This document shows positions 46,757 through 48,857 of a stretch of 64,000 bases of DNA, piece by piece. A program made the position numbers and the translations under genes. The notes under the pieces are model-generated. The model was not told the origin of the DNA and searched no databases. It worked only from the letters and a program-made list of their open reading frames with translations. Within the stretch, counting starts at the first letter, position 1, and each line of letters begins with the position of its first letter. The stretch comes from Geomonas silvestris (GTDB lineage Bacteria > Desulfobacterota > Desulfuromonadia > Geobacterales > Geobacteraceae). The stretch is taken from assembly GCF_014193515.1 (NCBI RefSeq), contig NZ_BLXX01000004.1:124001-188000 (forward strand), written 5' to 3'.

Positions 46757-47512
46757 CTACAAAACCCCGAGAAACTTATGTGTCTGCGGAATCACCCGCA
46801 CCTCGTCGAGCAGCACACCGGCCACTTCCTGAAGTTCCAGGGCGCGCCGCGAAGAGATGGCGAGCCTCCCCTCCGGCAGGGTCATGGGCTGCAGGATGAG
46901 CGGGATCTTCCGGTCGACCTCCGCAATCATGCGGCAGCTCAGCTCGACCTCTTCGTTCGTCGTTGTCGCCCCGGCCACGAGCTTTACGTACACGCTCTTC
47001 TGGGCGGCAAGCTCCAGGAACTGCCGGTGTTCTTCCCAAAGCGGCTGACAACCCGTGGCGGAAGGGAGCTTGAAGTCCATCCCGATGTAGTCCAGGTGCG
47101 GCAATAAGGGAGCAAGGGCCTTGGGGAGGGTCCCGTTGGTCTCGAGGTAGATCGGGAGGAGCTTTCTCAGCTCCGGAAGCCACTGTTCCAGTATGCGCCC
47201 GTGCAGAAGCGGCTCGCCGCCGGTAATGCTTATGGAGTGATGCAGTCCGGGCCAGTTCCGGGTCCACCCTCGAATCAGCTCTACGATCCGCTCGCAGGTC
47301 ACCGGGTTTGCCACCCGGACCAGGTCTTCCCGGCCCGGCGTCTGCTCCAGGATGCATTCCGCAGGGACCTCAGACATCCCCGGGGTATCGCAGAACGAGC
47401 AGTTCAGGTTGCAACCGGCAAAGCGTAGGAAAACCTGGCGCAGGCCAACCTGCATCCCCTCCCCCTGGATGGAGGAGAAGCATTCGACCAGGGGGGCCGG
47501 CTCTCTACTCAT
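46757..47512 (-). CDS. queE: 7-carboxy-7-deazaguanine synthase
   Basis: A 251-residue radical SAM enzyme that rearranges 6-carboxytetrahydropterin into 7-carboxy-7-deazaguanine in the queuosine (or deazaguanine DNA modification) pathway. FSSIQGEGMQVGLRQVFLRFAGCNLNCSFCDT holds the CX3CX2C cluster ligands at Cys34, Cys38 and Cys41, and the SAM motif SITGGEPLLHG follows. The QGEG start and the FxRxxGCNL block are diagnostic of QueE. It overlaps queD by eight bases, so both pathway steps are coupled. queC and queF are not in the window. Confidence 0.94.
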   Translation of the reverse strand: MSREPAPLVECFSSIQGEGMQVGLRQVFLRFAGCNLNCSFCDTPGMSEVPAECILEQTPGREDLVRVANPVTCERIVELIRGWTRNWPGLHHSISITGGEPLLHGRILEQWLPELRKLLPIYLETNGTLPKALAPLLPHLDYIGMDFKLPSATGCQPLWEEHRQFLELAAQKSVYVKLVAGATTTNEEVELSCRMIAEVDRKIPLILQPMTLPEGRLAISSRRALELQEVAGVLLDEVRVIPQTHKFLGVL

Positions 47513-47873
47513 AGTAGCTCGCCGCCGCGTAGTCGGACTCCCAGACCGTGACCATCTCCACCTTCACCTTGTCGGAACCGAAGATCTTGGTGAGTTCGAC
47601 GTAGAGGTAGCGGGCGATGTTCTCGGAGGAAGGGGAAAGGTCCTTGAAGGGGCCGAGTTCGTTCAGGTATTTGTGGTCGAGAGTCTTCAAGAGCGTGTTC
47701 GTCTCGCGCTTGAGGATCTTGAAGTCGATCCCGAGGCCCGCCTTGTCAAGTTCGGCGGTGGTGATGGAGACTTCAACCTTCCAGTTGTGGCCGTGCAGAT
47801 TCTCGCAATCGCCCTGGTAGTTGATAAGGTTGTGTGCCGCAGCGAACGCGGTATGTATGGTAAGACGGTACAT
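47505..47873 (-). CDS. queD: 6-carboxytetrahydropterin synthase
   Basis: A 122-residue QueD that turns dihydroneopterin triphosphate into 6-carboxy-5,6,7,8-tetrahydropterin. Zinc ligands are His14 (FAAAHNL), His27 and His29 (CENLHGHNW), and Cys23 is the catalytic cysteine of the CxxxHGH motif. The C-terminal PSSENIARYLY and VTVWESDYAAASY are conserved. It is the first gene of a two-gene queuosine unit with queE. Its upstream region is short (90 bases) before the 41-bp array; a TATATT -10-like element lies on the minus strand at 47913-47908. GGAGGG precedes the ATG. Confidence 0.94.
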   Translation of the reverse strand: MYRLTIHTAFAAAHNLINYQGDCENLHGHNWKVEVSITTAELDKAGLGIDFKILKRETNTLLKTLDHKYLNELGPFKDLSPSSENIARYLYVELTKIFGSDKVKVEMVTVWESDYAAASYYE

Positions 47874-47962
47874 AGTTCCCTCCAGTTCTCATTGGTATGA
47901 CCGTGCCAATATAGCACGGCGCTTTTTTCAAAACCAGAAAACACCGCCGCAGCCCCCGTAGG

Positions 47963-48451
47963 GGCGCCAATTTTTTTCGAACCCACGGACTTTCTGGAGG
48001 GCCGCCGCCGGTTTTTTCAAACCGGCGGACTTTTGTAGCAAATGGGCGCCGAATTTTTCAAACCGGAGTATTTTTAAATCAAAAAGCCGCCGACTTTTCC
48101 AAACCGGAAGATTTTTAAATCATAAAGCCGCCAACTTTTCGAAACCGGAAGATTTTTGAATCAAAAAGCCGCCAACTTTTTCAAACGGGAAGATTTTTAA
48201 ATCAAAAAGCCGCCGACTTTTTCAAACGGGAAGATTTTTAAATCAAAAAGCTGCCGACTTTTTCAAACGGGAAGATTTTTAAATCAAAAAGCTGCCGACT
48301 TTTTCAAACTCGAAGTTTTTTAAATCAAAAAGCCGCCAACTTTTTCAAACCGGAGAATTTTTGAATCAAACAGCCGCCGACTTTTTAAACGGCGGACTTT
48401 GGTAAAAAAAGTCCGCCAAGTTTTCAAACCGGCGGACTTTGTAGCAAATGG
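47963..48451. repeat. Tandem array, exact 41-bp period, about twelve units
   Basis: Units start at 47963, 48004, 48045, 48086, 48127, 48168, 48209, 48250, 48291, 48332 and 48373, always 41 bases apart; a last unit starts at 48411 after 38 bases. Eight central units (48045-48372) share the pattern GCCGCCGACTTTTTCAAAC, GGAAG, then GATTTTTAAATC and AAAAA. Flanking units instead end in GGCGGACTTT(T)GTAGCAAATGG. Unit 48004 folds into a perfect hairpin (CCGCCGGTTT-TTTC-AAACCGGCGG). The period is not a multiple of three, so it does not encode a repeat peptide, and there are no variable spacers, so it is not CRISPR. Confidence 0.93.
48404..48440 (-). terminator. Rho-independent terminator of the rimP-nusA-infB-pnp operon
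   Basis: On the minus strand AAAGTCCGCC, a 13-base loop, GGCGGACTTT and a run of T residues form a ten-base-pair stem. It lies about 60 bases after the last gene of the operon. It is also the edge of the 41-bp array, whose units resemble degenerate copies of this structure. Confidence 0.85.
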
Positions 48452-48500: not shown

Positions 48501-48857
48501 CTAGATGTTGATGCTTTCGCCACGCTGCAAAAGGGGAGCCTCGGTAGGCGTGGTGAAGGAGTTGTAGGCGAGTGCGAAGAAAAGTACCACCATGGAGATG
48601 AGCATGACGACGGTCGGCACCAGGCGCACCTCGCGCTCGTTACCGCCAGCCTGAACCAAGCCTGCAGCGGCGACCAGTACCCCGCAGCCGCCGCACACGC
48701 CGCCGAGGAAGAACCCAAGGAAGGTGAGTCTTACTTCTCCGCCGATCCCCAGCATCAGGAAATCGGCGGCCTGGGCCGGGTAGAAGGTGGCGATGATCAC
48801 GCAGATCACCCCGGCCAACATGAACTTGAGGCCGCTACGGACCGTTTTCTTACGCAT
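48501..48857 (-). CDS. Small integral membrane protein (118 aa)
   Basis: A 118-residue protein with three hydrophobic segments: KFMLAGVICVIIATFYPAQAA, FLGFFLGGVCGGCGVLVAAAGLV and LVPTVVMLISMVVLFFALAY. A glycine/cysteine-rich turn (GGVCGGCG) lies in the second. The C-terminus (NSFTTPTEAPLLQRGESINI) is polar. GGAGGGG lies five bases before the ATG. It follows the YciO gene by 21 bases and is the last gene of the long operon before the terminator. I do not recognise a family; the topology suggests an inner-membrane protein. Confidence 0.75.
   Translation of the reverse strand: MRKKTVRSGLKFMLAGVICVIIATFYPAQAADFLMLGIGGEVRLTFLGFFLGGVCGGCGVLVAAAGLVQAGGNEREVRLVPTVVMLISMVVLFFALAYNSFTTPTEAPLLQRGESINI

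Follow-up and report, generated by a model that had tools for sequence, protein, structure and literature searches.

A 41-bp tandem array upstream of queD in Geomonas silvestris as a putative satellite of gene-linked arrays with two-turn spacing

The region upstream of queD in Geomonas silvestris is occupied by a tandem array with a strict 41-bp period, and the question is what kind of element this array is. The stretch analysed here, hereafter the window, comprises 64,000 nucleotides (positions 124,001 to 188,000 of contig NZ_BLXX01000004.1, assembly GCF_014193515.1), and positions without a contig label are those of the window. An earlier note, made from the sequence alone, had described the array and proposed curved DNA, a protein-binding array or a transcription roadblock as its possible roles.

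Layout and setting of the array

Counted in 41-base steps from position 47963, the array was resolved into eight central units (48045-48372) differing by a few bases and into edge units bearing another half-unit ending (GGCGGACTTT..GTAGCAAATGG). TRF reported 48004-48390 with a period of 41, 9.5 copies, 88% matches and a score of 529, as compared with scores of 53-136 for the remaining arrays of the window. The autocorrelation was 0.74, 0.71 and 0.68 at lags of 41, 82 and 123, respectively, whereas the best value of 350-bp stretches drawn at random from this genome had a 99th percentile of 0.22. The core of the array (48004..48390, + strand), delimited by TRF, layout and autocorrelation, has the consensus GCCGCCGACTTTTTCAAACCGGAAGATTTTTAAATCAAAAA, which consists of two dissimilar halves of about 20 bp with a T5..TCAAA box in each. 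According to the layout, it is flanked by a diverged unit on the left (47963..48003, + strand) and by diverged units with an older half-unit, GGCGGACTTTGTAGCAAATGG, on the right (48391..48451, + strand). Perfect hairpins with 10 bp stems were found in the left edge unit (48005..48028, + strand; -17.9 kcal/mol, z -5.3) and at the right edge (48387..48420, + strand; -17.9 kcal/mol, z -6.2), and the two central units tested fold poorly, worse than shuffled ones (z +1.0).

The 41-bp period, the near-identical central units and the different flanking ends given in the earlier note were all recovered by layout and TRF, and its exclusion of coding and CRISPR arrays holds as well. Coding arrays were rejected because none of the periods 20, 41 and 62 is divisible by 3 and because the open frames are short; across the middle of the window array, no open stretch exceeds 40 aa. 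A CRISPR array was rejected on the absence of unique spacers, the units being directly adjacent to one another and similar throughout. The further claim that no known repeat family explains the array is true of the databases (Rfam gave no match anywhere in the window) but fails for the genome itself, where the array has a relative and belongs to a large class. An assembly artefact, which the note had named as a refutation, was dismissed because such arrays occur also in single-contig genomes.

Downstream of the array lies queD (47505..47873, - strand), the orthologues of which are 90-98% identical within the genus. A probable queD -10 box, TATATT (47908..47913, - strand), was read by eye in the aligned gaps; its sequence context is conserved across Geomonas, and the array lies beyond it, upstream of queD. 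A consensus scan for a sigma-70 site at the queD promoter gave no site. By the same promoter, the stretch 47922-47945 (CTTTTTTCAAAACC) is closer to the array unit than its G008 orthologue (CTATTTCCAAGACC) and is possibly the seed of the array, or was converted by it. The array had been placed between a translation operon and queD; it is indeed upstream of queD, but its right neighbour is a conserved 118-aa membrane-protein gene (48501..48857, - strand; found in 29/34 genomes), which marks the orthologous site in relatives and is followed by Sua5-like and other genes.

Strong curvature had also been suggested, and by a wedge model the curvature of the window unit, together with that of its relative on contig C1, is predicted to be above 97-99% of shuffled units. 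Intrinsic curvature or a transcription roadblock upstream of queD is nevertheless a most improbable explanation. Significant curvature at the 5% level was obtained for 14/68 Geobacteraceae units and 0/25 Flavobacteriales units, and curvature was rejected as the common function of the arrays because it is not general across the class; moreover, the relatives G008 and G004 carry quite different sequences at the queD site. The dyad symmetry of the units showed a weak excess only.

Gene-linked arrays with two-turn spacing in two phyla

Searched as DNA in 57 relatives, the window array gave no match outside its own genome, nor did the 41-bp-unit pattern in the named genome collection. The unit search recommended in the earlier note thus yielded nothing in relatives but a second array of the same type in the own genome (G000:C1:794005-794385; 76% over 174 bp, E 6e-29). 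The two consensus units, read against each other, agree at 32/41 positions and are most alike in CCGACTTTTTCAAAC and in the GATTTTT..TCAAAAA runs. The C1 array sits 197 bp 3' of a gene (G000:C1:794583-795260) belonging to a protein family with a C-terminal fn3 domain. No gene of this family stands beside the window array, which was assigned, on sequence similarity, as a probable 'satellite' of the master array beside its gene on C1.

Ten non-coding arrays, mostly unrelated in sequence, were counted over 800 kb of the own genome, with periods of 20, 21, 41, 42, 61-62 and 102; the few multi-copy arrays of other periods were short or coding. In the 800 kb of C1, an array lies within 400 bp 3' of 4/4 family genes (for all four, within 300 bp) and of 9/632 other genes (Fisher 1e-7). 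The family is represented by 9-19 genes per genome in 19/19 Geomonas, and is present in 4/39 other Geobacterales genomes and in 1/395 of the phylum sample. The pairing was counted on 110 full-length Geobacteraceae family genes with flanks: an array is found 3' of the stop codon in 67, starting at a median of 179 bp, and only upstream in 8. Periods of n x 20-21 bp were obtained for 73/75 gene-linked arrays, against a chance expectation of 22% of the periods from 10 to 130. Since the 110 genes are not all independent, the autocorrelation was repeated on 29 protein clusters, and its mean peaked only at 20-21, 40-42, 61-63, 81-84, 102-105 and 123-126. At 32 tested loci where TRF reported no array, weak peaks were still seen at 21, 42, 62 and 41, so the spacing outlasts the sequence; part of this preserved spacing could be due to descent from a once-perfect array. 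An fn3-array module is defined here by a family gene with a two-turn array no more than a few hundred bp away, and the class as a whole fits this definition.

In Geomonas the arrays are mostly 3' of the gene, sometimes past a terminator-like hairpin. In G024, from a second Geobacteraceae genus, arrays were observed on either side of the family gene (L226-L241), a layout intermediate between the 3' position seen in Geomonas and the 5' position seen in Flavobacteriales. Short members without the fn3 domain (L050:2028-2459, L052:2314-2778 and L055:898-1314) are likewise accompanied by a 21-bp array on the 3' side, and the N-terminal domain may therefore suffice for the link.

The scan of named genomes pointed to the genus Geomonas (GTDB sense, with Citrifermentans bremense) and gave family matches in two Flavobacteriales genomes (Bacteroidota), each with a 21-bp array upstream of the gene. 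In this order the family is present in 32/45 genomes, and an upstream array was found for 26/34 family genes with flanks, the minimal period being 21, 22 or 42-44 in 25 of these 26 arrays. Three Flavobacteriales genes have a downstream repeat of a different period.

Replication slippage could make and homogenise such arrays as neutral minisatellites, with the period as a by-product of mutation in steps of about 20 nt. The homogenised centre and diverged edges of the window array, as with unequal exchange, and the higher-order periods of 61, 82, 102 and 123 are consistent with this explanation. It is quite unlikely, however, in view of the link with a single protein family across two phyla and of a motif common to orthologous loci, AAAATCGGAAAACGT, which is kept with few changes in the units of six species. 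In addition, three genomes that lack the family (G019, G028 and G032) showed no non-coding array of this kind over 200 kb each. In 400 kb of the Geomonas genome G007, the periods were 41, 21 and 21, plus one 77-bp array of a different kind.

Arrays matched by BLASTN in 55 pairs, in all of which the relative score of the proteins was above 60%, and similarity of arrays was correlated with similarity of proteins (Mantel r 0.63; 0/2000 permutations as high), a correlation that is partly plain descent of orthologous loci. The array sequence is private to each protein lineage, common to related proteins and never to unrelated ones. The orientation of the array relative to the gene was the same in 54/55 matching pairs. 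This constancy speaks for an RNA-level module, in which a repeat RNA transcribed from the array would bind the protein or inhibit it in the manner of ToxI and ToxN in type III toxin-antitoxin systems, and the edge hairpins of the window array and some excess of self-complementarity (z < -2 in 13/68 units) point the same way. The poor folding of the central window units argues against an RNA, the helical quantisation at 20.5, 21 and 22 suggests duplex DNA instead, satellites are found far from any family gene, and the side on which the array lies differs between the phyla, 3' in one and 5' in the other; an RNA-level module is therefore considered unlikely.

The partner protein, master arrays and satellites

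The partner protein has about 215 aa and is made up of a helical N-terminal domain, a short and often basic linker and a C-terminal fn3 domain. It was modelled by AF2 as a helical domain plus an fn3 sandwich with a mean pLDDT of 88, and a short member as the helical domain alone (87). In the family scans, no curated model matched beyond weak fn3 hits and no recognised DNA-binding fold was found. Foldseek on the partner protein found fn3 only, and the structural search with the N-terminal helical domain gave no significant match; Avd of diversity-generating retroelements, listed at E 3.5 as a relative of this domain, was not taken as evidence. No Rep family was found in the Pfam, NCBIfam and PHROGs scans, no transposase, nuclease or polymerase family was detected in the protein, including the Y1 (TnpA-REP) transposase, PADLOC gave no defence-system match, and no viral copies of the family were confirmed. 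The genes are under purifying selection (dN/dS about 0.18), with the N-domain evolving faster than the fn3 domain (0.23 vs 0.13), and the median pI of the proteins is 8.7, i.e. mildly basic. In alignments A4 and A5, the row of L165 is without its C-terminal end.

Each array type consists of a master and 0-3 dispersed copies. Two further orphan arrays of the own genome, A2 and A4, have copies that adjoin family genes (C3:289276 and C15:137), the gene-adjacent array A7 has three orphan copies, and no master was found for the orphan arrays A6 and A9. Several contigs of the own genome begin, within about 180 bases, with an array or with a family gene oriented with its array side towards the contig end (G000:C1:149, C3:136, C15:137 and C7:131); near-identical arrays seem to break the assembly at these contig starts. 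The sequence CATTTACACAAAATCCTTTACAC, which resembles the terminal repeat of an IS256-type transposon and directly adjoins several arrays, is common to G000:C1 left of 149, L052 at about 1430-1500, L056 at about 1450-1500 and the downstream part of L283. A REP-like palindrome, GGGGCGAAT..ATTCGCCCC(TACA), was observed beside two arrays (G000:C1, flanks of 382153 and 724844) and again in the 77-bp tandem array (G007:C1:315442-316443).

Within the genus, the queD site was compared through the intergenic gap that separates queD from the 118-aa gene. Most Geomonas species have a plain gap of 110-255 bp, and in several other species (L007-L023) degenerate TTAACC hexamer runs were observed upstream of queD, with no array. 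At the same site, G008 (small protein 95% identical) carries an unrelated array with a period of 81 composed of parts of about 20 bp, and G004 carries yet another with a period of 21, so that three species have arrays of three types there. Both arrays have a relative elsewhere in their own genomes, and relatives of them adjoin family genes (L048/L157, L052); they are again satellites of fn3-protein modules.

Gene and array might together be a selfish or mobile satellite, with copies spreading between genes, the protein aiding their copying or expansion, and no gain to the host. The dispersed copies of each array type, the three different arrays at the queD site and the patchy distribution of the family (from 19/19 Geomonas and 32/45 Flavobacteriales to 4/39 and 1/395 elsewhere) are in keeping with such an element. 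This reading is doubtful in light of the purifying selection and of a protein without transposase, nuclease or polymerase families, and mobility needs no two-turn quantum.

Proposed mechanism and comparison with known systems

Our main reading, with a probability of about 0.5, is that the window array is a satellite target of a small cytosolic protein which would bind its own arrays cooperatively on one face of the helix. It is held equally probable that a new class of modules exists in at least two phyla, consisting of paralogues with private two-turn arrays and of satellites that would place genes such as queD under the protein. The gene of each protein adjoins a master array, which usually comprises some 8-25 units of about 20.5-21 bp; the protein would recognise the sequence of its own array and bind the units cooperatively. 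With two helical turns between units, every site would be on one DNA face, and bound proteins could therefore touch, forming a filament or a wrapped complex which may alter transcription nearby or the structure of the chromosome. Through the window array, queD together with its promoter region would come under the protein of G000:C1:794583-795260.

DNA binding, cooperativity and any effect on queD are what we infer from the arrangement of genes and arrays. A protein-binding array with helical phasing, one of the roles proposed in the earlier note, is the best-supported reading because dozens of unrelated arrays share the quantum of about 20.5-21 bp and adjoin one family; since a fixed two-turn spacing recurs in unrelated sequences with one family in two phyla, cooperative binding on one face is the simplest explanation. 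Against it, the spacing is 20-22 bp per unit and not a single value, so the phase would drift by up to half a turn over ten units. The 3' position in Geomonas is unusual for an autoregulatory operator, and the lack of a recognised DNA-binding fold, the only mildly basic pI and the masterless arrays A6 and A9 also count against binding.

Three known systems resemble the fn3-array modules in part. Plasmid iterons are direct repeats, 17-22 bp long and spaced by about two turns of the helix, that adjoin the gene of a Rep initiator proper to the array. The class periods of n x 20-21 agree with this spacing, but the window array has an exact repeat of 41 with dissimilar halves, the partner is without a Rep domain, and there are 9-19 family genes per Geomonas genome; the arrays are also longer, 3' of the gene in Geomonas, and have satellites elsewhere. 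In REP/BIME elements with RAYT (TnpA-REP), as in the fn3 modules, one copy of the repeat is linked to a gene and others are dispersed between genes. The modules differ from them in the absence of a Y1 transposase, in repeats that are not REP palindromes, in the strict two-turn spacing and in an unrelated repeat for each paralogue. In type III toxin-antitoxin systems (ToxIN), a short tandem array of repeats of about 36 nt lies by the gene of a small protein and is private to it, whereas the fn3-module repeats are 20-22 nt, copies exist in trans and the array is not always upstream. The partner, with helices and fn3 by AF2 and Foldseek, does not have the ToxN/AbiQ endoribonuclease fold.

The gene-array pairing appears to be previously unreported: no published description was found in the literature accessible to us, and no curated family or Rfam family describes it. 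The nearest earlier report, as far as the available part of that paper goes, lists direct repeats of 6 to 42 nt that lie between genes throughout the genome of Geobacter bemidjiensis, with function unknown and with no common period or protein-family link mentioned in that part (PMC2996986). The same part mentions a triplicated fibronectin type III protein of G. bemidjiensis, which is under GEMM riboswitches and possibly located at the cell surface (PMC2996986).

A family of unknown function has here been linked, at the level of single genes and in more than one phylum, to non-coding arrays of fixed helical spacing. Each paralogue comes with its presumed target, and specificity can thus be tested pair by pair; the dozens of natural protein/array pairs are material for learning a recognition code. 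If the proposed class of modules is real, protein and array would change together as a rapidly diversifying protein-DNA code; once confirmed, the link would represent a novel mode of chromosome organisation or regulation, the sites of which would have spread to new genes recently.
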